From NCBI RefSeq assembly GCF_900009265.2, contig NZ_LR735014.1:11716-55291 (forward strand): a stretch of 43,576 nt of DNA, given 5' to 3'. The DNA is from Planktothrix paucivesiculata PCC 9631. GTDB taxonomy: Bacteria; Cyanobacteriota; Cyanobacteriia; Cyanobacteriales; Microcoleaceae. Numbering within the stretch: position 1 is the first letter of the stretch; every line of letters starts with the position of its first letter. Both the position numbers and the translations under genes were made by a program. The notes beneath the pieces are model-generated. The model was not told where the DNA came from and did not search any database. It was given only the letters and a program-made list of their open reading frames with translations. Shown here in pieces: positions 1,006-32,093 of the stretch.

Positions 1006-4000
1006 ATGGTGACATCGATAGAACGTACCGCTTACCCTCGATTTAAGCGTCAATTGACAGCCCAAGAACTCACGGAGATTTACACACCCAAAAAGAGCGA
1101 AATTGCTTTAGCTTATGCTACAACTCAAGGTGAAAGTAATATTCTGAACTTATTATGCCTATTAAAATCATTTCAGCGACTCGGTTACTTTCCTTCTCTA
1201 GTAGATATTCCTCTGAAAATAGTTGCTCATATTCGCAGCAGTTTAAAATTTTCAGTTGAGACTGTTTTGGGTTATGAAAATCGTAAAACCCTGTATCGGC
1301 ACCGGACTGCTATCCGCGAATATCTTCAGGTCAATCAATTTAATCAAACTGGGCTACATCTAGCTATAAAAGCAGTGAATGAATCAGCAACTATCATGGA
1401 TAACCCGGCTGATTTGATGAATGTAGCCATTGCTGAATTAGTTAAAAATAGATATGAATTACCCGGATTCAACACATTAAATAGATTAGTCCGGCGAGTG
1501 AGAAATGTAGTAAACCAAAGATTATTTTCCCAGGTACTGAGTCGCATCTCGTCAGATTATCAAGAACGCTTGCTGGACTTGTTAGAGCGTCATCCGCTTG
1601 AGTATAAAACCGCCTTTAATAGCCTGAAACAACTACCTAAAAGCCCTACTCGTAACAATATTAATGACTTTATTGTACATTTAATCTGGCTAGATTCTGT
1701 GGGTGATGTTCAGCCAATTCTCAAGGATCTTACCACTGCCAAAATTCACCATTTTGCTGCCGAAGCACGGGTGTTAGATGCCCATGAAATCAAAGATTTC
1801 AGTTTATCCAAACGGATGACTTTGATTTTATGTTTAATTTATGCGTCGCAAGTGACAGCACGAGATAGTTTGGTTGAGATGTTTTTAAAGCAAATGCGCT
1901 CAATCAATAACGACGCGACTAAAGAATTAGAACTCATCAAAAAAAGAATTCAAGAAACACAAGAGAAATTAGTTGAAGTGTTGACTAATGTTCTTCATGT
2001 ATTTATAGATGAAAATCAATTAACTCATGAACAAGTAGATTCTCACCTAGAGCGGGAAGTATCCGATAGTTATTTATCTAATTCGCTAGAACAGATACAA
2101 GAATTGAATCTCTCTACCAAGCTCCTAAAAAATCAGGAAATATCTCTATTTCATAAACTCAATAATATCTTCACTCAAGACGGAGGAGCAGAACAACTAC
2201 TTTCGGAATGTGAGGCGATGAATGCTTATAGAGGTAATAATCATCTTCCTCTAATTTGGAAATTCTATAAAAATCATCGTCAGACCTTCTTCCGCTTAGT
2301 AAAAGCCTTAGAGTTCAAATCAACGACTACCGAACAAAGTGTTATCGAAGCATTACAATTTGTCCTCGATAATTCTCATCGTCGAGGAGAATTTCTCACT
2401 TCAAGTATTGAACTAGATTTTATTTCAGAACAGTGGCGAAAATTAATTGTAGTCAAGCAGGGAGAGAAAACCAAATTCGTTCGGCGACACTTCGAGGCTT
2501 GTATTTTTTACTACCTAGCAGCCGAATTAAGGTCAGGAGATATCTGCGTCGTTGGTAGTGAAGATTACGCCGACTATCGAGAACAATTACTGCCTTGGTC
2601 AGAGTGTTTGCCTTTAGTTGACCAATACTGTGAGAATGTAGGCTTTCCTAATAACGCTTCTGAGTTTACTAAGACATTGAAATCCTGGTTGACGGACACG
2701 GCGGCATCTGTCGATGCAGGTTATCCCAATAACCATCAATTTATTATTAATGATCAAGGCTCACCCATACTCAAAAAGTATCAGCGTAACGAGTTGAGTG
2801 TTGCTGCCAAAGCCTTAATAGAGAAAATCGAAGAACTATTTCCAGAAAGAAATTTAATCGATATCCTCAGAAATGTTGACTACTGGACAAATTTTACCCG
2901 TCACTTTGGGCCATTATCCGGTTCAGATCCTAAAATTGAACGGGCAACGGAACGTTATCTTTTAACGACGTTTACTTACGGTTGCAATTTGGGGCCGGCT
3001 CAAGCAGCGAGACATATGCGAGGTATCGTCACCGCCAAGGAACTGGCATTTGTCAACCGTCGCCATGTGACCGTGGATAAGCTCAATGCCGCATTGGTGG
3101 ATATTATTAACCGTTACAATGCTTTAAATCTGCCCAAGGTTTGGGGTGATGGTAAGAGTGCGGCGGCAGATGGAACGAAGTATGAACTCTACGAAGAGAA
3201 TTTACTGTCTGAGTATCATATTCGCTATGGGGGTTACGGAGGAATAGCTTACCACCATGTCTCTGATACCTATGTAGCGTTATTTAGCCAGTTTATTTCC
3301 TGTGGCACTTGGGAAGCTGTTCATATCATCGAGGGGTTATTAAAAAACTCTTCCGATATTCAACCCGATACAATTCATGCTGATACCCACGGTCAATCAA
3401 CACCTGTGTTTGCATTGGCACATATGCTGGGAATTAAGTTAATGCCTCGAATTCGGAATTGGAAAGATTTAAATTTTTATCGTCCTGACAAAGATACTGT
3501 TTATCAACATATTGATTCTTTGTTCTCTGAAACGGTGAATTGGAAGCGGATAGAAACTCATTGGCAAGATATTTTACAGGTAGTTTTATCAATTCAAACA
3601 GGTAAGGTATCGAGTGCAATTTTATTGCGTAAATTGGGGAATTATAGCCGTAAAAACAGGTTATATCAAGCTTTTCAGTCATTAGGACAAGTCGTAAGAA
3701 CTGTTTTCTTGCTGCAATACATATCGGATATGCAACTGAGAAAAGAAATTACTGCTGTGACCAATATTGTGGAGGCTTATCATAAATTCTCGAAGTGGTT
3801 TTTCTTTGGTGGCTTTGGAGTTGTGATGAAAAATGACCCCATTGAACAGGAAAAGGTAATTAAGTATAAGGATTTGGTAGCCAATGCTGTTTTGTTCCAA
3901 AATGTTGTTGATTTAACTGATATATTGCGGGATTTACAGAAGCAGGGATATTTGATTAGCCGTGAGGATGTGGCGGTTGTGAGTCCTTATATTACGGCTC

Positions 4001-4086
4001 ATGTTAAGCGGTTTGGTGATTACCTGATTGATCTGGAGACTGTGCCACCTTCGTTGGATGAGGTCGAAAGTTTAGTGCTGGCTTAA
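1006..4086 (+). CDS. tnpA: Tn3-family transposase TnpA
   Basis: DDE transposase of 1026 aa, the usual size for Tn3-family TnpA, which cuts and joins the element ends during replicative transposition. The N-terminal third has the helical DNA-binding organisation of the family; a charged helical middle region (about 290-380) may be coiled. The catalytic C-terminal domain is recognisable: first Asp at residue 722 (KSAAADGTKYE), second Asp at 793 (ADTHGQSTPVF) and the Glu at about 923 (NIVEAYHKFSKW). The highly conserved RNWKDLNFYRP-type segment follows the second Asp. The frame is intact from ATG 1006 to TAA 4086 and ends 41 bp before the right inverted repeat. There is no clear ribosome-binding site before the ATG. 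The preserved triad and full length suggest an active or recently active element. Confidence 0.95.
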   Translation: MVTSIERTAYPRFKRQLTAQELTEIYTPKKSEIALAYATTQGESNILNLLCLLKSFQRLGYFPSLVDIPLKIVAHIRSSLKFSVETVLGYENRKTLYRHRTAIREYLQVNQFNQTGLHLAIKAVNESATIMDNPADLMNVAIAELVKNRYELPGFNTLNRLVRRVRNVVNQRLFSQVLSRISSDYQERLLDLLERHPLEYKTAFNSLKQLPKSPTRNNINDFIVHLIWLDSVGDVQPILKDLTTAKIHHFAAEARVLDAHEIKDFSLSKRMTLILCLIYASQVTARDSLVEMFLKQMRSINNDATKELELIKKRIQETQEKLVEVLTNVLHVFIDENQLTHEQVDSHLEREVSDSYLSNSLEQIQELNLSTKLLKNQEISLFHKLNNIFTQDGGAEQLLSECEAMNAYRGNNHLPLIWKFYKNHRQTFFRLVKALEFKSTTTEQSVIEALQFVLDNSHRRGEFLTSSIELDFISEQWRKLIVVKQGEKTKFVRRHFEACIFYYLAAELRSGDICVVGSEDYADYREQLLPWSECLPLVDQYCENVGFPNNASEFTKTLKSWLTDTAASVDAGYPNNHQFIINDQGSPILKKYQRNELSVAAKALIEKIEELFPERNLIDILRNVDYWTNFTRHFGPLSGSDPKIERATERYLLTTFTYGCNLGPAQAARHMRGIVTAKELAFVNRRHVTVDKLNAALVDIINRYNALNLPKVWGDGKSAAADGTKYELYEENLLSEYHIRYGGYGGIAYHHVSDTYVALFSQFISCGTWEAVHIIEGLLKNSSDIQPDTIHADTHGQSTPVFALAHMLGIKLMPRIRNWKDLNFYRPDKDTVYQHIDSLFSETVNWKRIETHWQDILQVVLSIQTGKVSSAILLRKLGNYSRKNRLYQAFQSLGQVVRTVFLLQYISDMQLRKEITAVTNIVEAYHKFSKWFFFGGFGVVMKNDPIEQEKVIKYKDLVANAVLFQNVVDLTDILRDLQKQGYLISREDVAVVSPYITAHVKRFGDYLIDLETVPPSLDEVESLVLA

Positions 4087-4543: not shown

Positions 4544-5770
4544 TTATTGTTGTGTATATGAATTAAATATATGCCAACATTCAGAAGCGATCGCCCAATC
4601 TTCCTCCGTATGAACTACTAATACTTTCACTTGTGAATCTGCTGTTGAAATCTCTTGATCAATAGGGTGAGAGGCATTTTTTTCTAAATCTAATTTTAAG
4701 CCTAAAAACTCCCATCCCTGACAAGCTGTTTCTCGAACTTTTTCGGCGTGTTCTCCGACTCCGGCGGTAAAAACTAACGCATCTAAACCGCCTAAATTAG
4801 CTAACATTTGTCCTATTCCCATTTTTAAGTGATGAATATACATCTCAAAAGCCAGTTTAGCTTGAGCATTTCCAGCGTTCATTTCTGTTAACACATATCG
4901 CAGATCGCCCGACTCCCCACTAATACCTTTTAACCCCGATTCTTTATTTAAAATTTGATTAATTTGCTGAATATCGTATTTATATTGACTGATTAAATAT
5001 AATACAATGGATGGATCAATAGAACCGCTTCTGGTTCCCATCATTAATCCTTCTAGGGGAGTAAATCCCATCGTTGTATTAATACTAATCCCATCTTTAA
5101 TAGCGGCTAAGGAACATCCATTCCCTAAATGACAAGTAATTAATTTTAAAAATTCTAAGGGTTTTCCTAGAATTTTTGCAGTTTTTTGAGCGCAATATTT
5201 ATGGCTAGTCCCATGAAATCCATAGCGTTTGATTCCATCTTGAAAATATTGATAGGGAATGGGATAAACCGTGGCATAATCGGGCATGGTTCGATGGAAT
5301 GCGGTATCAAAAACCGCTACTTGGGGAACATTTCCTAATAGGGTTTCTACGGCTTCAATTCCTTCTAAATGGGCGGGGTTATGACTGGGAGCGAGGGGAA
5401 TTAAATCCCGAATGGTTGCCTTTACTTTTTGATCAATTAATGTTGCTTCTGAATAGTCTGAACCTCCATGGACAACGCGATGACCAACTATTGTAATTTC
5501 TGAAAGATCATTTAAAACTTGGGTTTCTCCAGTAATTAGGGTATTAAATAACTGCGCGATCGCATCTTGTTTAGACTTTAAATCTAAGGGATATTCTTGT
5601 TTCACCCCTGGAGTTTTGACGGTCATTAAACCTAATTCTTTTGAAGCTGTCCAATCAATATTGGCTTCCCAAATCGGGTGTAAGGGATAGTCGGGTAATG
5701 CTGGTTCTTTAATTTCATACAGACAGCTTTTTTGAGAACTGGAACCCGCATTTAATACTAAGATTTTCAT
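4544..5770 (-). CDS. ackA: Acetate kinase
   Basis: Converts acetyl phosphate and ADP to acetate and ATP in the cytoplasm. At 408 aa it has normal length. Family motifs are present in order: the N-terminal phosphate motif NAGSSSQK, the substrate Arg in GHRVVHGG, the catalytic His in CHLGNGCS, the GFTPLEGLMMGTRSG signature with its Arg, and the C-terminal TAGVGEH and HTEEDWAIAS segments. It reads in the same direction as the histidine-phosphatase gene 73 bp upstream, so the two may be one transcript. Phosphoketolase, whose product is acetyl phosphate, lies just beyond on the opposite strand. That makes a phosphoketolase-AckA route for substrate-level ATP formation likely. No phosphotransacetylase is in the window. 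Confidence 0.96.
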   Translation of the reverse strand: MKILVLNAGSSSQKSCLYEIKEPALPDYPLHPIWEANIDWTASKELGLMTVKTPGVKQEYPLDLKSKQDAIAQLFNTLITGETQVLNDLSEITIVGHRVVHGGSDYSEATLIDQKVKATIRDLIPLAPSHNPAHLEGIEAVETLLGNVPQVAVFDTAFHRTMPDYATVYPIPYQYFQDGIKRYGFHGTSHKYCAQKTAKILGKPLEFLKLITCHLGNGCSLAAIKDGISINTTMGFTPLEGLMMGTRSGSIDPSIVLYLISQYKYDIQQINQILNKESGLKGISGESGDLRYVLTEMNAGNAQAKLAFEMYIHHLKMGIGQMLANLGGLDALVFTAGVGEHAEKVRETACQGWEFLGLKLDLEKNASHPIDQEISTADSQVKVLVVHTEEDWAIASECWHIFNSYTQQ

Positions 5771-5843: not shown

Positions 5844-6482
5844 TTAAGTTCCAATAGAAGATCGTAAAGTTTCATCTAAATGACAACGATCCGCTAAAGT
5901 ATGTAATAACGGCCCGCGAGAAGATAATTCTACTATACTAACGGCTGCCGTCGGCATAGCAATGCGATCGCGGAATCTACCAATATCAATTCCCAATAAT
6001 CCACATAACATAATTCTAATCGTGGCTTTATGAGACACAATTAAAATATTACCCGAGGGATAACGTTCTTCAATTTCTTGAATTATCTGGGAAGAACGGC
6101 GAGCAATATCAATTCCTTTCTCCCCTCCGGTCGGTGCATTCCAACCTGGATCTGTTAACCATCTAACATAATCATCGTGGTAATTTTCATTAACAGTTTC
6201 GGGAAGTTTTCCTTCCCATTCTCCATAGGCAATTTCTTTTAAACCTTCTCGAAATTGCATTTCTAAACCCACTAGATCAGACAAGGGTTTGGCTGTGGCA
6301 ATAGTTCGTTTCATCGGACTGACAAAGGCGGCTGTCCAAGTGAAATTCTGATAAGATTGGGCAAATTGCTCCGCCATTTTTAAGCCATTTTCGGTTAATT
6401 CCGGATCTAAATTTCCACAATAACCCCCTTGTTGACTATAGGTGGTTTCTCCGTGTCGTAAAAAATACAATTTAACAGTCAT
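5844..6482 (-). CDS. Histidine phosphatase family protein (phosphoglycerate mutase-like)
   Basis: A 212-aa member of the histidine phosphatase superfamily. The phosphohistidine motif LRHGET is at the N-terminus, the second conserved Arg is in SPMKRTIATA, the catalytic Glu is in KEIAYGEWEG, and the second His is in LIVSHKATIR. The family includes cofactor-dependent phosphoglycerate mutases, phosphosugar phosphatases and cobalamin-pathway alpha-ribazole phosphatases; the length and broad-type sequence do not separate these. It lies 73 bp upstream of ackA on the same strand and divergent from phosphoketolase, which favours a sugar-phosphate substrate, but that is context inference only. Confidence 0.85.
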   Translation of the reverse strand: MTVKLYFLRHGETTYSQQGGYCGNLDPELTENGLKMAEQFAQSYQNFTWTAAFVSPMKRTIATAKPLSDLVGLEMQFREGLKEIAYGEWEGKLPETVNENYHDDYVRWLTDPGWNAPTGGEKGIDIARRSSQIIQEIEERYPSGNILIVSHKATIRIMLCGLLGIDIGRFRDRIAMPTAAVSIVELSSRGPLLHTLADRCHLDETLRSSIGT

Positions 6483-6815: not shown

Positions 6816-9224
6816 ATGGTATCTGCACCAGATAGACCCATGGAGACGAGTCACCCTCTGGGTGAGGACGAACTGCGTAAGATTGATGCCTACTGGCGAG
6901 CTTGTAATTATCTAGCCGTGGGCATGATTTATTTACGAGAAAATCCTCTGTTAAAAGAATCCCTCCAGCCCTCAGATGTCAAACATCGGTTGTTAGGACA
7001 TTGGGGTTCCAGTCCCGGGTTGAGCTTTATCTACATTCACCTCAACCGACTGATTAAAAAATACGACCTGGATATGATTTATCTAGCCGGCCCAGGTCAC
7101 GGCGCCCCCGGAGTCCTGGCTCCAGTTTACCTCGAAGCAACCTATTCGGAAATTTACCCCAATATCAGCGAAGACGCCGAGGGGATGCAAAAATTCTTTA
7201 AACAATTCTCTTTCCCCGGCGGAATTGGGAGCCACTGCACCCCGGAAACCCCCGGTTCCATCCATGAAGGGGGAGAGTTAGGCTATAGTTTATCTCACGC
7301 CTATGGTTCTGTATTTGATAACCCCGATTTAATCTCCGTTTGTGTGGTGGGAGACGGAGAAGCCGAAACCGGAGCCTTAGCCACCGCTTGGCATTCTAAC
7401 AAATTTCTCAACCCGATTCGGGATGGGGCAGTGTTACCCATTCTGCATTTGAATGGCTACAAAATCGCTAACCCAACTATTTTATCGCGGATTAGCCATG
7501 AGGAATTAGAAGCCCTGTTTAAAGGTTATGGCTATAAACCCTATTTTGTGGAAGGGTCAGACCCCGCCTTGATGCACCAAAAAATGGCAGCTATCCTAGA
7601 AACAGCCATTTCTGAAATTAAAGCCATTCAAGCCGAAGCTCGGTCAACGGGAGTGGCTAAACGTCCCCTGTGGCCGATGATTGTATTGCGGAGTCCGAAA
7701 GGCTGGACTGGCCCAATGGAGGTCAATGGCCATAAAGTTGAAGGTTTTTGGCGGGCGCACCAAGTCCCCATGGCCGATGTCACCACCAACCCCACCCATC
7801 TCAAGTTATTAGAAGATTGGATGCGGAGTTATAAGCCCGAAGAACTGTTTGATGCTAACGGCCGTTTAATTCCCGAACTGAAAACTTTAGCCCCCCAAGG
7901 TACAAAACGAATGAGTGCCAGTCCCCATGCGAACGGGGGTGTGCTGCGTAAAGACCTGCGATTGCCGGATTTTCGGGACTATGGTGTTCCGGTGGAATAC
8001 CCCGGTAAGTCCGAGGTGGAAAATACCAACCCCCTAGGAAAATTCCTCCGGGATGTGATGCGGAATAATCTGCAAAATTTCCGGGTATTTGGCCCCGACG
8101 AAACTGCTTCTAATCGTTTAAATGCGATATATGAGGTCAGTAAAAAAACCTGGATGGGGGACTTTTTACCAGAGGATTTAGATGGGAGTGAACTGGCGAC
8201 CGATGGCCGGGTGATGGAAATGCTGAGTGAGCATACCTTAGAAGGATGGTTAGAAGGCTATTTACTCACCGGACGCCATGGATTTTTCCATACTTATGAA
8301 GCCTTTGCTCATGTGATTGATTCGATGTTTAATCAACACGCGAAATGGTTGGATATTTGCCGAAATGAGGTGTCTTGGCGATCGCCAATTTCTTCTTTGA
8401 ATATTCTCTTATCTTCAACGGTTTGGCGTCAAGATCATAACGGGTTTAGTCATCAAGACCCGGGCTTTTTAGATGTGGTTACGAATAAAAGTGCCAGTGT
8501 CACCCGGATTTATTTACCCCCCGATGCTAACTGTTTATTATCCGTTGCGGATCATTGTTTAAAGAGTACCAATTATATCAATGTGATTGTGGCAGATAAA
8601 CAGAAACATCTGCAATTTTTGACAATGGATGAGGCGATTAAACATTGCACAAAAGGGATTGGAATTTGGGAATGGGCCAGTAGTGATGATTGTGGAAAAG
8701 ACCCGGATATTCCTGATGTAATTATGGCGGGTTGCGGGGATGTGGCGACGATGGAATCTCTCGCAGCTACGGCAATTTTACGGGAAGAAATTCCCGATCT
8801 AAAAGTTCGATTTGTCAACGTGGTGGATTTATTTAAGTTACAACCGGATACGGAACATCCCCACGGGTTATCAGACCGAGATTTTGATAGTTTGTTTACC
8901 ACGGATAAACCGATTATCTTTAATTTCCACGGCTATCCTTGGTTAATTCATAAGTTAGCTTATCGTCGCAAAAATCACGCTAATCTGCACGTTCGTGGGT
9001 ATAAAGAGAAGGGGAATATTAATACGCCTTTAGAGTTGGCAATTAATAACCAAGTTGACCGTTTTAATTTAGTCATGGATGTAATTGACCGGGTTCCTAA
9101 ATTGGGTTCGGCGGCGGCTTATGTCCGAGAAAGAATGAAAAATGCGATCATCGAAAATGTCAATTATGCCCATGAGCATGGCATTGACAAAGATGAAATT
9201 GTCAACTGGAAATGGCCGTTTTAA
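6816..9224 (+). CDS. xfp: Phosphoketolase (xylulose-5-P/fructose-6-P)
   Basis: Thiamine-diphosphate enzyme that splits xylulose 5-phosphate or fructose 6-phosphate with phosphate, giving acetyl phosphate plus glyceraldehyde 3-phosphate or erythrose 4-phosphate. The 802-aa length is typical. Seen motifs: [20 protein letters not shown], the GPGHGAPG box, the ThDP/Mg motif [16 protein letters not shown] followed by [12 protein letters not shown], and the conserved [10 protein letters not shown] and [10 protein letters not shown] segments near the C-terminus. Start ATG 6816 follows an AGGAG but with unusually short spacing; ATG 6840 is an alternative. Acetate kinase is divergent upstream and transaldolase lies downstream, so the cluster can send Calvin-cycle or pentose-phosphate sugars to acetate and ATP without decarboxylation. 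Confidence in family is very high; substrate preference cannot be read. Confidence 0.97.
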
Positions 9225-9479: not shown

Positions 9480-9977
9480 ATGAGTGACTTAATTGCGATC
9501 GCCTACGATGACGAATATAAAGCCGAAGAAGTCCGTCTGACTTTGATTAAATTACAAAAAGAACATTTAATCGAATTAGAAGACGCGGCGGTGATCGTCA
9601 AAAATGCCGAAGGAAAAATCAAACTCAAGCAAGCCGTTGATTTAACCACTGCGGGTGCAGTCAGTGGCGGGTTTTGGGGTCTATTAGTTGGAACCTTATT
9701 CCTGAGCCCCCTGTTAGGTGCCGCCGTGGGAGCCGCTGCTGGAGCCGCCAGTGGTGCCTTAAGTGATATTGGGGTGGATGATAAATTCATGAAATCCCTA
9801 GGGGAAAGCTTACAACCGAAAACCTCTGCCCTCTTTGTATTAGTGCGGAAAGTCACCCCCGATAAAGTTTTAGAAGAAATCGCGCCCTATGGGGGAACCG
9901 TGTTAAGAACTTCTTTAACTAAAGACGAAGAAGCTCAATTACAAGAGGTTTTGAGTACCCGAGGCGTGACCGTTTAA
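9480..9977 (+). CDS. DUF1269 family membrane-associated protein
   Basis: A 165-aa protein opening MSDLIAIAYDDEYKAEEVRL, the typical start of DUF1269 proteins, followed by a beta/alpha segment (LEDAAVIVKNAEGKIKL). A glycine/alanine-rich hydrophobic hairpin comes next (about residues 55-95, GGFWGLLVGTLFLSPLLGAA then AAGAASGALSD). The C-terminal half (SALFVLVRKVTPDKVLEEI) is soluble-looking. The biochemical role of the family is unknown. The glycine-zipper hairpin suggests membrane insertion. It lies between phosphoketolase and transaldolase on the same strand, with its own probable terminator downstream. Family call is from memory of the N-terminal pattern and glycine zipper. Confidence 0.75.
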   Translation: MSDLIAIAYDDEYKAEEVRLTLIKLQKEHLIELEDAAVIVKNAEGKIKLKQAVDLTTAGAVSGGFWGLLVGTLFLSPLLGAAVGAAAGAASGALSDIGVDDKFMKSLGESLQPKTSALFVLVRKVTPDKVLEEIAPYGGTVLRTSLTKDEEAQLQEVLSTRGVTV

Positions 9978-10085: not shown

Positions 10086-10181
10086 AGTCATCAGTAATTA
10101 GTCAATATTTAGACCGTTGATTAATTAAATTATTTGTTATACTTTGTTGTGATTAGCGACCTAAATAGAGGACGGAAAATA

Positions 10182-11360
10182 ATGGCACAAACTCTACTCG
10201 AACAACTACGGGAAATCACCGTTGTCGTGGCGGATACTGGAGATATCCAAGCCATTGAGATGTACACCCCTAGAGATGCAACTACCAACCCCTCCTTAAT
10301 TACTGCCGCTGCCCAAATGCCGCAATATGAAAGTATTGTGGATGATACCCTCAAAAAAGCGCGTCACGAATTAGGGGGAAGTGCTTCGCCTACTGAAGTG
10401 GCAACTTTAGCTTTTGAAAGATTGGCTATTGCTTTTGGACTAAAAATATTAGCCATTATTCCTGGGCGCGTCTCCACGGAAGTCGATGCTCGGTTATCCT
10501 ACGATACGGAAACCACCATTGCTAAAGGTCGTTATATTATCGAGCAATACGAAGCGGCTGGAATTTCCCGCGATCGCATTTTAATTAAAATTGCCTCCAC
10601 TTGGGAAGGAATTAAAGCCGCCGAAGTCCTAGAAAAAGAAGGAATTCATTGTAATTTAACCCTATTATTTGGCATTCATCAAGCGATCGCCTGTGCTGAA
10701 GCTGGAGCGACCTTAATTTCTCCCTTTGTCGGTCGGATTTTAGATTGGTATAAAAAAGACACTGGACGAGATTCCTACCCCCCCGAAGAAGACCCCGGCG
10801 TTTTATCCGTCACCCAAATTTATAACTATTATAAAAAATTTGGCTATCAAACAGAAGTGATGGGGGCAAGTTTCCGTAATATTGGAGAAATTACTGAGTT
10901 AGCCGGATGTGATTTATTAACAATTTCTCCCGCCCTCCTAGAAGAATTACAATCAACCATTGGCGACCTTCCCCGCAAACTCAATCCCGAAACCGCCGCC
11001 AGTTTAGACCTAGAAAAAATCTCCATTGATCAAGATACCTTTAACCGAATGCACGCCGAAGATCCGATGGCTTCGGAAAAATTAGAAGAAGGAATTAAAG
11101 GGTTTTCCAAGGCCTTAGAAGCCCTAGAAAAATTCTTAGCTGAACGTCTAGCTCGTTTGGAAGGAGAAGAAGTAATTAGCCATGCGGCTGAAGATATTTT
11201 CCGCGCCTATGATTTAGATGGCGATGGCTATATTACCCGGGAAGAATGGTCAGGAACAGACGCCGTATTTGATGCCCTCGATCAAGATAATGATGGTCAA
11301 ATTACCGTCGAAGAAATGGCCGCTGGACTGGGTGCATCCTTCCATTTAGCCACGGTTTAA
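10182..11360 (+). CDS. tal: Transaldolase with C-terminal EF-hand pair
   Basis: Transfers a dihydroxyacetone unit between sugar phosphates in the pentose-phosphate pathway. The protein opens [20 protein letters not shown] and carries the Asp/Asn signature ATTNPSLI, the Schiff-base Lys in [13 protein letters not shown] and the NLTLLF strand. The start chosen is ATG 10182, preceded by AGAGGA; an upstream in-frame ATG at 10134 lacks such a signal. The enzyme domain covers about residues 1-325. A roughly 60-residue tail then holds two canonical calcium loops, [12 protein letters not shown] and [12 protein letters not shown], each with acidic residues at positions 1, 3, 5 and 12. From memory, long EF-hand transaldolases occur in other cyanobacteria. 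The tail suggests calcium binding; whether it regulates activity is unknown. Confidence 0.95.
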
Positions 11361-11505: not shown

Positions 11506-13989
11506 ATGAGTCCATCAATTCCTAATTCTATTTTCAACGATCTAATGGCCGATGATTCCGAAACGGCACCCTCTTTAGACTATTTACAACGAGAATTTGC
11601 AACTAACCTTCTGTATCTTCAAGGTCAATTACCCACAACCGCAACCCCCCAAGAGTTATATCAAGCGTTAGCCTATACTATTCGACAATTTTTAATGCCC
11701 TCCTGGGTGAAAACAACTCAAACCTATTCCCAAAATAAAGTTAAACAGGTTTGCTATTTTTCCACTGAATATTCTTTAGGTTCCCATCTGGGAAATCATT
11801 TAGTCAATTGCAATTTGTGGGAACCTTTGAAACAATGCCTCGAAGCCTTTAACTTAAACTTACAAGACTTAGTTGATCAAGAAATAGAACCCAGTTTAGG
11901 ATATGGAAATGTTGCCCAATTACCCATCGATCAATTAGATTCTCTTTCTACATTAAATCTTCCAGCTATTGCCTATGGAATTCGTTATGAATTTGGTAGT
12001 TTTGATCAAGAAATTCATCACGGTTGGCAAGTAGAAAGGATTGATAAATGGTTGCGTTATGGAAATCCCTGGGAAATTCTTCGTCCCGAGGCTACGGTAA
12101 ATGTGCAGTTAGGGGGTCATACCGAGGCCTATTATGACCAAAAAGAACGCTATCGGGTGCGTTGGATTCCCCAGCGTTGCATCAAAGGAGTACCCTATGA
12201 TACACCGATTTCCGGTTATCATAGTCATACCGTTAATACGTTAAGATTATGGAAAGCAGAACCCATTGTTTCCTATAATTCTCAAGATTTTAATATTGGC
12301 GATTATTACGGCAGAGTTCAGGGAAAACCTTTTGTTGAATTACTCACAAAAGTATTATATCCCCATGATGAAAGGATTCAACAAAAACAACTACGTTTAG
12401 AACAACAATTCTTTTTTGTCTCCTGTTCTCTCCAGGATATGATTCGCAATCATCTCGCAACGGGAGAAAATTTAGAGACCTTTGATCAGCACTATTCTAT
12501 TCAACTGCATGATACTTCCAGTGCGCTCGCTATTGCCGAATTGATGCGATTATTTGTTGATGAATATGGCTTAGAATGGGAAAAATCCTGGTCTATTACC
12601 CGCAAAACTTTTACCTATCTTAACCCCACACTGTTACCCGAAGTTGAAGAAAAATGGGCGATGGGATTATTAGGGAGTTTATTACCCCGTCACTTAGAAA
12701 TTATCTATGAAATTAATAATCGATTTTTGATTGGAGTTCGCAATCAATATCCGGGGGATTTTAGTAAGTTATCCCGACTATCTTTAGTTGATGAAACCGG
12801 GGAAAGATATGTGCGGATGACTCATTTAGCTTGTATTGGAAGTTATGCGATTAATGGAATTTCTCTATGGCAAACCGAAAGGTTAAAGCAATCGGTTATT
12901 CCTGATTTTTATGAATTAACACCGGAAAAATTTAGAACAATTAGCAGTGGTATTACCCCTCGGCGTTGGTTAGTTTTAGCTAATCCCCGTTTAACGGAAT
13001 TAATTACCCATAAAATTGGTAATAGCTGGATTAAAAATTTTGCAGATCTACATCGCTTAGAATCGGAATTGGATCAGGTAGAATTTCGTTTGGCTTGGCG
13101 AAATATTAAGCAAGAAAATAAACGAAACCTGGCTAGTTATATTCAGCAGAATTGCGGGATCACGGTAAATATTGATTCTATTTTTGATATTCAAATTGAA
13201 CGAATTCAGGAATATAAACGTCAACATTTGAATATTTTAAAAATTATTACCCTCTATAATCGGATTCGGAAAAATCCCGATCAAGATTATGTTCCCCAAA
13301 CCTTTATTTTTGCAGGAAAAACCGCCCCAGGTTATGTGATGGGGAAATTGATGATTAAATTAATTCATGCGGTAGGTCAAGTGATTAATTCTGATCCTAT
13401 TATTGGCGATCGCTTGAAAGTCGTATTTATTCCGAATGTTAATGAGACCCTAAGTCAACATATTTATCCGGCCGCTGATGTCTCGGAACATTTAGCAATG
13501 GCTGGGAAAAAAGCCGGCGGAATTGCAATTTTGAAACCTGCTTTTAATGCAGCATTAACCCTGGGAATTGTAGATGGAGCCAGTGAAGAATTACGCCATG
13601 TGATCGGAGCAGAAAATTTCTTTGACTTCGGATTAAGTTTACCTGAAATTGAAGTTTTAAAAGCCAAGGGTTATAATCCTTGGAGTTATTATCATGAAAA
13701 TGAAAGCCTGCGAGAAAGTATTGATCAAATTGCATCCGGTTATTTTTCCCAAGGCGATCCGAATCTGTTTAAAACCTTGATTGATGCCCTATTATATCAC
13801 GATGAATATATGGTTTTTGCCGACTATCAATCCTATATGGATTGTCAAGATAAAATCAGCCAAACCTACAGAGATTGGGAAACCTGGACGAGAATGTCTA
13901 TTTTAACTGTAGCCCGTTTAGGTAGTTTTTCTTCCGATGGAATTGTCCAGGCTTATTCTGAGAATGTTTGGCGGATTCATCCAGTTTAG
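11506..13989 (+). CDS. Glycogen phosphorylase homologue with degenerate active site
   Basis: The 827-aa chain follows the GT35 glycogen phosphorylase fold end to end: YGIRYEFGSFDQEI, GWQVERIDKWLRYGNPWEI, RHLEIIYEINNRFL, GITPRRWLVLANPRL and EYKRQHLNIL align with true phosphorylases. The PLP lysine position is kept (K677 in GGIAILKPAF). Most other catalytic positions are changed, using rabbit muscle numbering from memory: H377 is P374, N484 is S481, E672 is K669, T676-G677 are I673-A674, K568 is E565, H571 is Q568, N284 is E289, H341 is S338, and the NGGLGRL loop has become YGNVAQL. The chain is thus probably catalytically inactive, or has changed chemistry. The frame is intact and the fold residues are retained, arguing for a selected non-enzymatic role such as glucan binding or regulation. 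It lies between transaldolase and a channel gene on the same strand. Confidence 0.85.
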   Translation: MSPSIPNSIFNDLMADDSETAPSLDYLQREFATNLLYLQGQLPTTATPQELYQALAYTIRQFLMPSWVKTTQTYSQNKVKQVCYFSTEYSLGSHLGNHLVNCNLWEPLKQCLEAFNLNLQDLVDQEIEPSLGYGNVAQLPIDQLDSLSTLNLPAIAYGIRYEFGSFDQEIHHGWQVERIDKWLRYGNPWEILRPEATVNVQLGGHTEAYYDQKERYRVRWIPQRCIKGVPYDTPISGYHSHTVNTLRLWKAEPIVSYNSQDFNIGDYYGRVQGKPFVELLTKVLYPHDERIQQKQLRLEQQFFFVSCSLQDMIRNHLATGENLETFDQHYSIQLHDTSSALAIAELMRLFVDEYGLEWEKSWSITRKTFTYLNPTLLPEVEEKWAMGLLGSLLPRHLEIIYEINNRFLIGVRNQYPGDFSKLSRLSLVDETGERYVRMTHLACIGSYAINGISLWQTERLKQSVIPDFYELTPEKFRTISSGITPRRWLVLANPRLTELITHKIGNSWIKNFADLHRLESELDQVEFRLAWRNIKQENKRNLASYIQQNCGITVNIDSIFDIQIERIQEYKRQHLNILKIITLYNRIRKNPDQDYVPQTFIFAGKTAPGYVMGKLMIKLIHAVGQVINSDPIIGDRLKVVFIPNVNETLSQHIYPAADVSEHLAMAGKKAGGIAILKPAFNAALTLGIVDGASEELRHVIGAENFFDFGLSLPEIEVLKAKGYNPWSYYHENESLRESIDQIASGYFSQGDPNLFKTLIDALLYHDEYMVFADYQSYMDCQDKISQTYRDWETWTRMSILTVARLGSFSSDGIVQAYSENVWRIHPV

Positions 13990-14033: not shown

Positions 14034-15932
14034 ATGAGTAAGATTACTTTTGCAGAGCAATTCCGCTACAGATTTGATAATTTCATGTCAAAAGGCACTA
14101 TTGCCTTGGTCAGTGGTTTAGCACTGCTCTCCTTCGCCTTTATTCTGATTATGGGATTTTTAGTTAGTCTCGCCAGGGTTGCACCCCCGGGGGATGGCGC
14201 ACTGAATCCCTTTGAGGCAATGTGGGCTGTTTTAATGCGTACCCTGGATGCGGGAACCATGGGAGGCGACCAGGGATGGTCATTTCGTCTGGCGATGTTA
14301 TTGGTTACCTTTGGCGGAATATTTATTATTAGTACCCTGATTGGTTTGCTCAGTAGTGGCATTGATACCAAGTTAGAAGACCTGCGAAAAGGACGTTCAC
14401 GGGTGATTGAAACCGATCATATTGTGATCCTGGGTTGGTCATTACAAATCATCACTTTAATTAATCAACTGATTTTAGCCAATGCTAACCGTTCAGATAC
14501 TTGCATTGTTATTCTAAGTCCTGAAGATAAAGTTCAGATGGAAGATCGGCTCTATAATGAGTTGGGGAAACTGCGTCAAGTTCGCCTCGTTTGTCGTACA
14601 GGAAACCCCAGTAATTTAGTGGATTTAGGCATGGTAAATATTCAGGCAGCCCGCTCAGTTATTATTTTAAATGAATCTCTAAGCAAATCTGATAATCATT
14701 TAATTAAGACTCTTTTAGCAATTAAAAATTTACCCCGTTTAGAATCCAAACCCTATCATATTGTCGCTCAAGTTCAGGATATTAACACCCTCGATATTAT
14801 TCAACTCATCGGACAGGATGAAATTGAAGGATTACTGACTCAGGATTTAATTTCCCGGATGATTGTTCAAACTTGCCGTCAATCTGGTTTATCGATTGTT
14901 TATATGGAATTATTGGATTTTAGCGGGAATGAAATCTATATTCACGAAGAATCTGCTTTACAAAATCAATCCTATGGAGATATTCTCCTAGCCTATCTTG
15001 ATTCTGCGGTGATCGGAATACAATCAACCGATGGCACAATTCAACTCAATCCCACCCTAGATAGACTCTTGCAACCGGGAGAAAAATTAGTTGTTTTAAG
15101 TGAGGATGATAGCACGATTCGCTTATCCGGTGTTTCAGAATTTGCGATTAATCGGAGTGTGATCCAACTAACAAAAGAAACAGCCATCTCGACCCCCGAA
15201 CATACGTTAATTTTAGGGTGGAATGATCACACTCCTCGGATTCTATCTCAACTGGATCAATATGTTGCCAGTAACTCCAGTGTTACCCTGGTTTCGCCTT
15301 TCCCAGAAACCGAGATTATTAATGCCTTAAATACCTTAAATTTACAACAACAAACCCTGGATTATTATCAAGGATTAACGACCGAAAGAAATGTTTTAGA
15401 GTCTCTGAATTTAGAGAAATATCACCATGTTATTGTCTTGTCTAATTCTGAGTTAGATCCAGAAGAAGCCGATGCTCAAACCTTAATTACCTTGATCTAT
15501 CTTCGAGATATTGCCGACCGCAAAAATCCTAATATACAGATTGTCACTGAAATGTTAGATACCCGCAATCAAGCCTTAGCTCAGGTGGCGCGTCCCGATG
15601 ATTTTGTGATTACTGAACAAATTATTAGTCGGATGTTAGCCCAAGTTTCAGAACAGAAAAACTTAAATGCTGTATTTGCCGAATTATTTAGTCCTCAAGG
15701 GTCAGAAATTTACCTCAAACCCGTCAGTAATTATGTCACTATTAACGAACCGATTAATTTTTATACCGTTGTTGAAGCGGCTAAACAACGGGGCGAATCA
15801 GCAATTGGTTATCGGTGTTTGAAGGATGCTAAAAATTTAGCCCGAGGTTATGGGATTGTGATCAATCCGAAAAAAGATGAAGTGATAAAATTTTCTTCTA
15901 AAGATCGGATTATCGTTTTAGCGGAGTCCTAA
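14034..15932 (+). CDS. CASTOR/POLLUX-like ion channel with RCK domains
   Basis: A 632-aa membrane protein. Hydrophobic helices lie at about residues 22-48 and 82-110. Between them is a pore-like segment with AVLMRTLDAGTMGGDQGW, in which D-A-G matches the filter region of plant CASTOR/POLLUX channels (ADAG). The amphipathic ISTLIGLLSSGIDTKLEDLR after the second helix is typical of the family. Two cytoplasmic TrkA-N/RCK-like nucleotide-binding folds follow (about 125-360, starting HIVILGWS, and about 385-630, starting HTLILGWN). The plant relatives are cation channels gated by ligand at RCK domains. It starts 44 bp after the phosphorylase homologue on the same strand and may share its transcript. 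Ion and ligand cannot be deduced. Confidence 0.85.
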   Translation: MSKITFAEQFRYRFDNFMSKGTIALVSGLALLSFAFILIMGFLVSLARVAPPGDGALNPFEAMWAVLMRTLDAGTMGGDQGWSFRLAMLLVTFGGIFIISTLIGLLSSGIDTKLEDLRKGRSRVIETDHIVILGWSLQIITLINQLILANANRSDTCIVILSPEDKVQMEDRLYNELGKLRQVRLVCRTGNPSNLVDLGMVNIQAARSVIILNESLSKSDNHLIKTLLAIKNLPRLESKPYHIVAQVQDINTLDIIQLIGQDEIEGLLTQDLISRMIVQTCRQSGLSIVYMELLDFSGNEIYIHEESALQNQSYGDILLAYLDSAVIGIQSTDGTIQLNPTLDRLLQPGEKLVVLSEDDSTIRLSGVSEFAINRSVIQLTKETAISTPEHTLILGWNDHTPRILSQLDQYVASNSSVTLVSPFPETEIINALNTLNLQQQTLDYYQGLTTERNVLESLNLEKYHHVIVLSNSELDPEEADAQTLITLIYLRDIADRKNPNIQIVTEMLDTRNQALAQVARPDDFVITEQIISRMLAQVSEQKNLNAVFAELFSPQGSEIYLKPVSNYVTINEPINFYTVVEAAKQRGESAIGYRCLKDAKNLARGYGIVINPKKDEVIKFSSKDRIIVLAES

Positions 15933-29165: not shown

Positions 29166-32093
29166 ATGACAGAGGAAGAACTGCAACAACTAATCGAACA
29201 AGCAGCTAGGGAAAATTGGACAGAACTGGATGTGTCTGGCAATGAGTTAAGGGTTTTGCCCCCGGAAATTGGGAAACTGCATCAACTCAAAAAACTGTTC
29301 CTGGGCAAATATATTGAAGACAAAGACGGTTATACCTCAGTTATTGGCAACCCGTTAACAGCCTTACCAGGAGAAATTGGCCAACTTACGAATCTTGAGG
29401 AACTGCACATTGTTAAAAATCGTTTAACTGGTCTACCTGTAGAAATCACTCAACTCACCAATCTGCAAACCCTCGACCTGAGTAGCAATCAACTCAGCAG
29501 TCTACCTGTAGAAATCACTCAACTCACGAATCTGCAAACCCTCGACCTGTGGAACAATCAACTCAGCAGTCTGCCTGTAGAAATCACTCAACTCACGAAT
29601 CTGCAAACCCTCAACCTGGGTAACAATCAACTCAGCAGTCTGCCTGTAGAAATCACTCAACTCACGAATCTGCAAACCCTCAACCTGTGGAACAATCAAC
29701 TCAGCAGTCTGCCTGTAGAAATCACTCAACTCACGAATCTGCAAACCCTCAACCTGGGTAACAATCAACTCAGCAGTCTGCCTGTAGAAATCACTCAACT
29801 CACGAATCTGCAAACCCTCGACCTGTGGAACAATCAACTCAGCAGTCTGCCTGTAGAAATCACTCAACTCACGAATCTGCAAACCCTCGACCTGAGTAGC
29901 AATCAACTCAGCAGTCTACCTGTAGAAATCACTCAACTCACGAATCTGCAAACCCTCGACCTGTGGAACAATCAACTCAGCAGTCTGCCTGTAGAAATCA
30001 CTCAACTCACGAATCTGCAAACCCTCAACCTGGGTAACAATCAACTCAGCAGTCTGCCTGTAGAAATCACTCAACTCACGAATCTTAAAAAGTTGGACTT
30101 GCGGGGAAATCCAGTCCCCATTCCCCCTGAAATTTTAGGCTCCAAAAATCTATGGGAAAATCCGGGTGATGTGCAAGAGATTCTAAATTTCTATTTTCAA
30201 GTTCAAAATCCCCAGGAAACTGAACCACTTTATGAAGCAAAATTCTTGATTATTGGTGAAGGGGGAGCAGGTAAAACCTCCCTCGCAAAAAAAATAGAAA
30301 ATGAAGCCTATAAACTGCAAACCGATGAGAACTCTACCCAAGGCATTGATGTGATTCAGTGGCAGTTTATCGGCTCAGAGGGACAGAAAGTTCGAGTCAA
30401 TATTTGGGATTTTGGCGGACAAGAAATTTACCACCATACCCACCAGTTTTTCCTAACTGAGCGCTCTCTGTATGGATTAGTGGCCGATACACGGGAGGAA
30501 AATACCGACTTTTTCTATTGGCTGAAAGTTGTTGAACTTTTGAGTGATAATAGTCCAGTTTTGATTATTAAAAATGAAAAACAAGAGCGTCAGTGCCAAA
30601 TTAACGAGCGCCACTTGCGTTCAGAATTTACCAAGTTAAAGGATATTCTCTCAACAAATTTAGCGACCGATCGCGGATTATCGGAAATAAAAAAAGCCAT
30701 TCAATACCAAATTAGTCAACTTCCCCATATTGGCACTCCCCTCCCTAAACTTTGGGTGAGAATTCGTTCTGCTTTAGAGAACGATTCTCGCAACTATATT
30801 AGTGAGGAAGAATATTATCGCCTGTGTCAAATTAATGGCTTAACAAATCGCCCCGAAATGCGACAAATCAGCCGTTATCTTCATGACCTGGGAGTCTGTC
30901 TGCACTTCCAAAATGATTCCCTCTTAAAAAAGACAGTAATTCTAAAACCGGAATGGGGAACAAAGGCAGTTTATAAAGTTTTAGTAGATAATCCAACAGT
31001 TCAGAAAAATTTAGGCTGTTTTACCCAAGCCGATCTCGCCGATATTTGGAAAGATATTCAATATGCCCAAATGAGGGATGAACTATTACAGTTAATGATG
31101 CGGTTTAAACTCTGTTATGAAATTCCGTGTCGTCCCCAAACCTATATTGCTCCTCAATTGCTTTCTGCAAATCAACCGGAATATGATTGGAATGATCAAC
31201 AAAATCTGATTCTGCGCTATGAATATGAATTTATGCCAAAAGGGATTCTCACTCGCTTTATTGTGGAAATGCACCGCTTAATTGAGGAACAAAAACAGGT
31301 TTGGAAACATGGTGTGATTCTTAATAATAATAATCGAGCTAAGGCGGAAGTGATTGAATGCTACCGCTATCATAAAGGGGAAATTAAAATTCGGGTTTCT
31401 GGGTTCCATAAAAAAGAGCTTCTCTCTATCATTAATAATAAGTTCGACGAGATTCATCAATCCTTTGAACGCTTGCAATATAAAACTTTAATTCCCTGTA
31501 ATTGCTTTAAATGCAAGGACAACCCCGATCCCGAAAACTACCCCTTGGATCGCCTTTATAAATATCTTCAAGATAACCGACCCACAATTGAGTGCAGCAG
31601 CAGCTATGACAGGGTAAATATTCGAGGTTTGATTGATGATGTGATAGAACCTATATATAGAGAAAGGGATTCTTTTGATTCCTTTCCCCCGTCGTCCAAT
31701 AAACGACAACAACACATTAACATTAATATTGGTCAGGAGAATCCAACCATGTCTACTAATTATCTAACGCATTATGGTTCTGGCGATAATGTCGGAAACG
31801 TCGCAGGGGATAAGGTGACACACAACATCTATAATAATCAGGAGATTCAGCAAACAAGCCAAGAAATTAACGTTTTGCTGAGTACCATTTCCCAAAACTA
31901 TGAACCGAATACACCCGCCGGACAAATGATGATTGGTGCGAAAGCCATTGAGATCGTTGACCAAGATCCGACCCTCAAAAAAAGGGTAATGGGTGCTTTG
32001 AAAAGTGCAGGGGAAGAAGCACTAGAACAAATGATTGAACATCCCGCCGCTAAAGTGTTTATAGCAGGTGCAAAAGGCTTTATAGACCCATAA
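29166..32093 (+). CDS. Leucine-rich-repeat Roc-COR (Roco) protein with extra C-terminal domain
   Basis: A 975-aa signalling-type GTPase. Residues about 1-330 are leucine-rich repeats of 23 aa (QLSSLPVEITQLTNLQTLDL-type units), ten of them almost identical. The Roc GTPase follows: P-loop GEGGAGKTS at 364-372, G3 motif DFGGQE at about 415, and a N-E-K at the G4 position instead of N-K-x-D. The COR region extends to roughly 830 and contains WVRIRSALENDS and LHDLGVCLHFQND. The last 130 residues are an unusual tail: a linker with GSGDNVGNVAGDKVTHNIYN, then a helical domain (AGQMMIGAKAIEIVDQDPTL). Roco proteins act as dimeric GTP-dependent scaffolds, often with another effector domain; here no kinase is present. 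It stands alone, divergent from clpS. The target is unknown. Confidence 0.93.
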   Translation: MTEEELQQLIEQAARENWTELDVSGNELRVLPPEIGKLHQLKKLFLGKYIEDKDGYTSVIGNPLTALPGEIGQLTNLEELHIVKNRLTGLPVEITQLTNLQTLDLSSNQLSSLPVEITQLTNLQTLDLWNNQLSSLPVEITQLTNLQTLNLGNNQLSSLPVEITQLTNLQTLNLWNNQLSSLPVEITQLTNLQTLNLGNNQLSSLPVEITQLTNLQTLDLWNNQLSSLPVEITQLTNLQTLDLSSNQLSSLPVEITQLTNLQTLDLWNNQLSSLPVEITQLTNLQTLNLGNNQLSSLPVEITQLTNLKKLDLRGNPVPIPPEILGSKNLWENPGDVQEILNFYFQVQNPQETEPLYEAKFLIIGEGGAGKTSLAKKIENEAYKLQTDENSTQGIDVIQWQFIGSEGQKVRVNIWDFGGQEIYHHTHQFFLTERSLYGLVADTREENTDFFYWLKVVELLSDNSPVLIIKNEKQERQCQINERHLRSEFTKLKDILSTNLATDRGLSEIKKAIQYQISQLPHIGTPLPKLWVRIRSALENDSRNYISEEEYYRLCQINGLTNRPEMRQISRYLHDLGVCLHFQNDSLLKKTVILKPEWGTKAVYKVLVDNPTVQKNLGCFTQADLADIWKDIQYAQMRDELLQLMMRFKLCYEIPCRPQTYIAPQLLSANQPEYDWNDQQNLILRYEYEFMPKGILTRFIVEMHRLIEEQKQVWKHGVILNNNNRAKAEVIECYRYHKGEIKIRVSGFHKKELLSIINNKFDEIHQSFERLQYKTLIPCNCFKCKDNPDPENYPLDRLYKYLQDNRPTIECSSSYDRVNIRGLIDDVIEPIYRERDSFDSFPPSSNKRQQHININIGQENPTMSTNYLTHYGSGDNVGNVAGDKVTHNIYNNQEIQQTSQEINVLLSTISQNYEPNTPAGQMMIGAKAIEIVDQDPTLKKRVMGALKSAGEEALEQMIEHPAAKVFIAGAKGFIDP
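29421..30110 (+). repeat. Ten 69-bp LRR DNA repeats, nearly identical
   Basis: Units start at 29421 and then every 69 bp from 29490 to 30042. The middle units differ only in the last codons (encoding DLWNN, NLGNN, NLWNN or DLSSN) and one base in the Leu-Pro codons (CTACCT or CTGCCT). The order of variants repeats: the block SSN, WNN, GNN at 29421-29627 recurs at 29835-30041, exactly six units (414 bp) later, including the rare CTACCT. This shows array growth by unequal exchange of multi-unit blocks. Confidence 0.95.

Follow-up and report, generated by a model that had tools for sequence, protein, structure and literature searches.

Our analysis revealed that Planktothrix genomes encode an intact phosphorylase whose active site has been rewritten, in addition to a canonical glycogen phosphorylase. 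This confirms the central observation of an initial annotation, which was made from the DNA letters. Judged by its residues and its conservation, the variant protein can be regarded as a pseudoenzyme of the GT35 family, which has lost canonical catalytic residues while the gene has been retained under selection. Its placement in the tree and its gene neighbourhood identify it as a member of a further cyanobacterial paralogue that is otherwise canonical and is termed GlgP-B here; the canonical phosphorylase of the same genomes is GlgP-A.

Gene, family and genomic neighbourhood

The window, by which we mean the whole stretch of 43,576 nucleotides analysed from Planktothrix paucivesiculata PCC 9631, contains the variant in a cluster of carbon genes. 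The following features were assigned by Pfam and NCBIfam unless stated otherwise:

4544-5770 (-): acetate kinase
5844-6482 (-): histidine-phosphatase (phosphoglycerate-mutase-like) protein
6816-9224 (+): phosphoketolase (xfp)
9480-9977 (+): DUF1269 protein (Pfam)
10134-11360 (+): transaldolase with C-terminal EF-hands
11506-13989 (+): putative pseudo-glycogen phosphorylase of GT35, a GlgP-B paralogue with a rewritten active site (ORF, Pfam/NCBIfam, alignment and tree)
14034-15932 (+): Castor/Pollux-like RCK-domain protein (Pfam)

The variant frame encodes 827 aa from an ATG and is free of internal stops, in agreement with the initial description of an undamaged open frame. The alignment with glycogen phosphorylase over its length, also proposed at that stage, is borne out by the matches to PF00343 (residues 113-824, 884 bits, cut-off 27) and, over the whole length, to TIGR02093 (940 bits versus a cut-off of 552.9). 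With full-length homology above a curated cut-off, the variant belongs to the GT35 sequence family. The top solved structure by sequence is PDB 9wvu, an ‘Alpha-1,4 glucan phosphorylase’ (1033 bits). The closest named genomes are those of P. rubescens PCC7821 (93%) and Planktothrix sp. PCC 11201 (92%), and an Oscillatoriales MAG matches at 94%; identity to the full-length canonical cyanobacterial phosphorylases that we fetched is about 50-59%. The phosphorylase fold is probably kept in the variant, as we infer from the full-length homology; an AlphaFold2 model from 12 input sequences (the window protein and 11 relatives) was of low confidence (mean pLDDT 43.8, pTM 0.36). Searches of Pfam and NCBIfam at E <= 0.001 returned neither a DNA-binding domain nor any other added domain.

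In PMC12892837, the GlgPs of cyanobacteria are described as PLP-dependent homodimers distinguished by a regulatory peptide at the C-terminus, and both Synechocystis isoforms as tailed and alike in catalytic capacity. The variant resembles the cyanobacterial GlgP1 and GlgP2 (for example, of Synechocystis PCC 6803) in family and approximate length, and it arose from the GlgP-B paralogue, but its active site is rewritten and the tail described in that text is absent: all ten copies end five residues past the last tryptophan. Canonical cyanobacterial rows that are not cut by the fetched regions extend further, in L038, L039 and L057 by only a few residues.

Phosphoketolase, acetate kinase and transaldolase genes are clustered with the variant, and its original placement inside a phosphoketolase cluster holds. 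As in the window, a transaldolase gene adjoins canonical GlgP-B in two other genera of the family (G011 and G013). In more distant genomes, GlgP-B adjoins phosphoketolase in G040, and has a phosphoglycerate-mutase-like gene, acetate kinase and transaldolase as neighbours in G052; none of these carbon-cluster neighbours was seen at several other GlgP-B loci that we examined. Since such neighbours occur at GlgP-B genes that are still canonical, parts of the carbon cluster probably predate the loss of the active site. The RCK-domain gene lies directly downstream of the variant in some, not all, of the Planktothrix loci examined. The EF-hand repeats of the window transaldolase may point to calcium control within this cluster, and in G009 the transaldolase beside the variant (L080:6208-7436, +) is divided into two overlapping frames. 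The window further contains a Tn3-family transposase gene beside the carbon cluster (1006-4086, +), a gene for a leucine-rich-repeat protein with Roc, COR-A and COR-B domains (29166-32093, +) and, about 28 kb from the variant, a phosphoglucose isomerase gene (PF00342; 41870-43459, +).

The rewritten active site

Residues were mapped by a phmmer alignment with rabbit muscle phosphorylase, with K680 as an anchor (residue 677 of the variant); the rabbit numbering of the initial annotation proved correct. We inspected 40 positions which, with their roles, we take to form the active site of the rabbit enzyme. Among them, K568, T676, G677, G135 and the glycine loop presumably contact the PLP phosphate, and we assume that H377, E672, N484, R569 and K574 contact substrate or phosphate. 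In the rabbit alignment, the most prominent changes map to these codons of the window:

11902-11919 (+): glycine loop (rabbit 133-138, residues 133-138), NGGLGR changed to YGNVAQ
12625-12627 (+): catalytic-site H377 changed to P (residue 374)
13198-13218 (+): 568-574 motif (residues 565-571), KRIHEYK changed to ERIQEYK, with R569, Y573 and K574 kept
13510-13539 (+): 672-681 motif (residues 669-678), EASGTGNMKF changed to KAGGIAILKP, with the PLP lysine K680 kept

Every replacement named in the initial annotation is present, namely H377P, N484S, E672K, T676I, G677A, K568E, H571Q, N284E and that of the glycine loop, and the PLP lysine is retained in all ten copies, as had been noted. N284E does occur, but it does not count as a loss: the nine otherwise canonical GlgP-B copies have E (eight) or D (one) at this position, and the change therefore predates the loss and is not part of it. 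Further changes in the window copy are N282H, N338H, H341S, V455I, S674G, N678I, M679L and F681P. In total, the window copy differs from the canonical GlgP of the same genome at 23 of the 40 inspected positions, and the ten copies of the genus carry 22-25 changes relative to the canonical copy; the GlgP-A copies of these ten genomes carry none. The presumed PLP-phosphate contacts (K568, T676, G677, G135 and the glycine loop) are replaced throughout the genus, as are H377 and E672, and N484 is lost from eight copies (G005 and G006 still have N). The substrate and phosphate contacts R569 and K574 are retained in all ten copies, and G134, D283, D339, T340, N376, T378, G485, W491, Y573, K671 and G675 are likewise unchanged. 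Across 812 residues, the variant and the canonical copy share about 52% identity, and no gap falls within the motifs in the rabbit alignment, which rules out a misalignment.

The losses concentrate at the active site. From 64 rows in total, we compared ten variants with 47 canonical rows, among which are ten closely related GlgP-A sequences from the genus and four sequences from gammaproteobacteria; five rows shorter than 700 aa and two rows from genus g10 were excluded. Positions conserved in at least 97% of the canonical rows were considered invariant. Such invariants were lost from all ten variants at 19 of 35 active-site positions versus 36 of 216 elsewhere (Fisher p = 5e-6), a comparison whose active-site list overlaps with what the original finding pointed at. 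At 35 of these 55 lost invariants, all ten copies share one identical replacement.

Origin and distribution

All ten sampled Planktothrix genomes carry both the variant as an open frame and a canonical GlgP, which in the source genome lies at G000:C160:59251-61386; the second, canonical glgP that the initial annotation had suggested looking for thus exists. A sequencing artefact is ruled out by the occurrence of the variant in ten genomes.

Two trees were calculated, one from 60 of the 64 rows (at least 500 aa) and a more careful one from 52 rows without 37 active-site columns, for which 12 rows were removed by hand (six fragments or split pieces and six near-duplicates), and the two agree. 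In the 52-row tree, GlgP-B together with the variants is split from all other rows with 100/100 support, and the ten variants form a single clade (100/100) nested within GlgP-B. The separate cyanobacterial clade with shared substitutions, for which a phylogeny had been proposed, therefore exists and has one origin. The sister of the variants is G011+G013 (91/86, not starred), and the variant stem measures 0.83 changes per site versus 0.16-0.19 on the sister end branches. The exact sister may reflect long-branch effects, but the transaldolase gene adjoining GlgP-B in both G011 and G013 speaks for it. A recent duplication of the Planktothrix GlgP-A was rejected as the source (grouping of the variants with GlgP-A, p-AU 5e-5). 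Together, tree, residues and gene content show that GlgP-B lost its canonical site a single time, ahead of the divergence of the sampled Planktothrix species, and that GlgP-A kept its site.

The spread of the variant was judged by identity over a C-terminal segment of 141 aa, a comparison which is blind to changes in the N-terminal half or of a few residues, such as those of genus g10 (76%); the residue table covers the fetched copies. Among 61 genomes of the family, copies covering most of this segment are 74-100% identical to canonical GlgP-B, with the exception of the ten variants (59-65%). Other matches are remnants of 31 aa (two genomes) and 65 aa (G242) and distant sequences (28-34%), and four of the 61 genomes have no match to the segment. 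The order was sampled with 85 genomes, partly overlapping with the family set; 59 of them have a match at E <= 1e-12, and among these matches only the two sampled Planktothrix variants (59-60%) and a single G105 copy (44%) fall below 73%. Thus, in this survey of the 141-aa segment, the full-length variant is present in all ten sampled genomes of one genus and in no other sampled genome. Genus g11 of family f1 (for example, G019 and G024) shows no close GlgP-A or GlgP-B match but distant matches of 28-30% or none.

Two further groups of altered phosphorylases were detected outside Planktothrix:

L114:2246-3475 (+), also L116-L121: degenerate phosphorylase of half length, with the C-terminal part only, in genus g61 of the order
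L019:1501-3954 (+) and L022:1501-3942 (+): GlgP-B of genus g10 (G018 and G023, same family), open frames

The half-length phosphorylase is a second, separate case. In G105, it comprises the C-terminal half (409 aa from an ATG), in which KRIHEYK has become QPIVEHQ and the 672-681 motif is mostly unrecognisable. Eight of nine g61 genomes have a match, consisting of seven full open copies (405-441 aa) and, where a contig ends, a single fragment of 92 aa; the six other full copies are 56-81% identical to that of G105 (blastp). The fetched flanks of the seven full copies contain no trace of an N-terminal domain. G121 also encodes a full-length phosphorylase with canonical motifs. Like the Planktothrix variant, the g61 proteins are degenerate, have both the 568-574 and 672-681 motifs replaced and are open in several genomes of their genus. 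They differ in comprising only the C-terminal half and in having also lost R569 and K574 (7/7), both of which the full-length variant keeps.

The GlgP-B of genus g10 carries R569P, G135S and A673V in both genomes, and in G023 additionally H341Y and more glycine-loop changes; most other catalytic residues, among them E672 and K568, are retained. Based on these residues, it is possibly an incipient pseudoenzyme. The canonical GlgP-A of G023 (L077:6593-9210, -) is split into two frames that join near codon 290, which is either a sequencing error or a real break. In G013 and G044 (L018/L068 and L076), GlgP-B is divided into two overlapping frames at about codon 90, and its inspected active-site residues are nearly canonical.

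Selection and possible roles of the variant

Across 45 genome pairs with dS up to 0.73, the median dN/dS is 0.141 for the variants versus 0.061 for GlgP-A, and the variant value is higher in every pair, one of which has almost no synonymous change in GlgP-A and carries little weight. The variant gene is thus constrained by purifying selection, but less so than the GlgP-A enzyme. Variation among the ten copies affects 6 of 37 positions of the former active site, compared with 246 of 827 positions overall and 37 of 216 other canonical invariants. Constraint on the rewritten pocket is thus similar to that on the remaining conserved core, which argues for either a function that needs the pocket or packing; since the ten species are close relatives, this constraint is modest evidence. 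We assume the borders of the dimer-contact, tower and glycogen-storage-site segments. Within these borders, no invariant was lost from the 160-197 segment (0 of 17) or the 397-437 (storage-site) segment (0 of 10), and the tower segment lost one (1 of 10); the tower segment matches the canonical consensus at 13 of 30 positions and the 108-121 segment at 4 of 14. Taken as so delimited, the dimer-contact and glycogen-storage segments kept most canonical invariants. The storage-site and 160-197 segments would fit a role in glucan binding or pairing, and the tower and 108-121 segments fit less well.

The initial proposal of a retained non-catalytic phosphorylase is well supported: the gene is intact in ten of ten genomes, accompanied by a canonical second copy and of one origin, and the proposed dN/dS analysis gave a low median. 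The explanation that we favour, to which we give about an even chance, is that phosphorolysis was lost once and that the variant persisted as a non-catalytic partner, binding glucan or forming dimers, that would steer glycogen flow. GlgP-B, situated in the phosphoketolase, acetate kinase and transaldolase cluster, lost the canonical active site while GlgP-A remained canonical. The loss of phosphorolysis is itself predicted from the residues. The variant would then bind glucan, pair with GlgP-A or with itself, or do both, and could in this way set the site or rate of glycogen degradation and the feed into the phosphoketolase route. A dN/dS above that of GlgP-A, the missing C-terminal tail and the four retained pocket residues (R569, Y573, K574 and K680) weigh against this reading.

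A neofunctionalised enzyme or small-molecule sensor is a possible though distinctly less probable alternative. Here, a remodelled pocket would bind or convert another anionic ligand, such as a sugar phosphate or PLP, by means of R569, K574, K680 and the new K672. The main point for such a pocket is the identity of R569, Y573, K574 and K680 in all copies, which a purely structural role would leave unexplained, and the uniform change of E672 to K, the low variability of the former site relative to the whole protein and the long stem followed by short branches point in the same direction. However, the presumed PLP-phosphate contacts are replaced throughout, the sequence names no ligand or substrate, and the former active site is no quieter than other invariants. 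It is improbable that the variant remains a phosphorylase which tolerates the replacements and has a weak, altered or different activity on alpha-glucans. Such an enzyme would agree with the retained K680, R569, K574 and D339 and with the TIGR02093 score, but H377, E672, K568, T676, G677 and the glycine loop, all invariant in the canonical set, are replaced in every copy, and single changes at such sites reportedly cost E. coli maltodextrin phosphorylase most of its activity.

About as improbable is a PLP- or glucan-sensing regulator of the adjoining carbon genes, as originally proposed. Its placement in the xfp/tal/ackA cluster and the retained K680 speak for it, but a DNA-binding or other effector domain was not found at the threshold given above, and PLP sensing looks weak because the presumed PLP-phosphate contacts are replaced in all ten copies, even though K680 stays. 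Least probable of all is a slowly decaying pseudogene without function that was retained by chance: a dN/dS above that of GlgP-A in all pairs and the loss of the C-terminal tail would be expected of decay, but all ten frames have remained open at the divergence sampled, with a median dN/dS of 0.14, and the losses concentrate at the active site, where few positions have varied since.

For a partner or scaffold without catalysis, the nearest functional analogy is provided by plant BAM4 and BAM9, which PMC12892837 describes as inactive paralogues of a storage-glucan-degrading enzyme beside active ones, with proposed regulatory roles. As is probable for Planktothrix, an inactive paralogue there accompanies an active copy, but a single catalytic glutamate is absent from the plant proteins, compared with about half of the inspected site replaced in the variant. 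BAM4 and BAM9 differ from phosphorylase in fold and chemistry. Judged by titles and the beginnings of abstracts, searches of the open-licence literature, including that on Planktothrix, yielded no paper on a pseudo-phosphorylase or an inactive glycogen phosphorylase, and they brought up no genetics for the variant. The variant appears to be a genuine pseudoenzyme from a known family, one that these searches did not encounter in print.

Since the variant passes the NCBIfam glycogen phosphorylase model, automatic annotation would probably label it as an active enzyme, and models of Planktothrix metabolism would include a phosphorylase activity that is likely absent from this protein. The question is directly testable, as the cells also contain a canonical paralogue, an outgroup copy is canonical and ten species can be compared. 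By analogy among the full-length protein of Planktothrix, the C-terminal half of genus g61 and the possibly incipient case of genus g10, we tentatively suggest, as a possibility well short of an even chance, that cyanobacteria have repeatedly turned a phosphorylase into a non-catalytic regulator or scaffold with a shared role in the control of glycogen mobilisation, comparable to that proposed for the plant pseudo-amylases. If the variant is regulatory, it would represent a bacterial counterpart of the plant pseudo-amylases in a bloom-forming genus.
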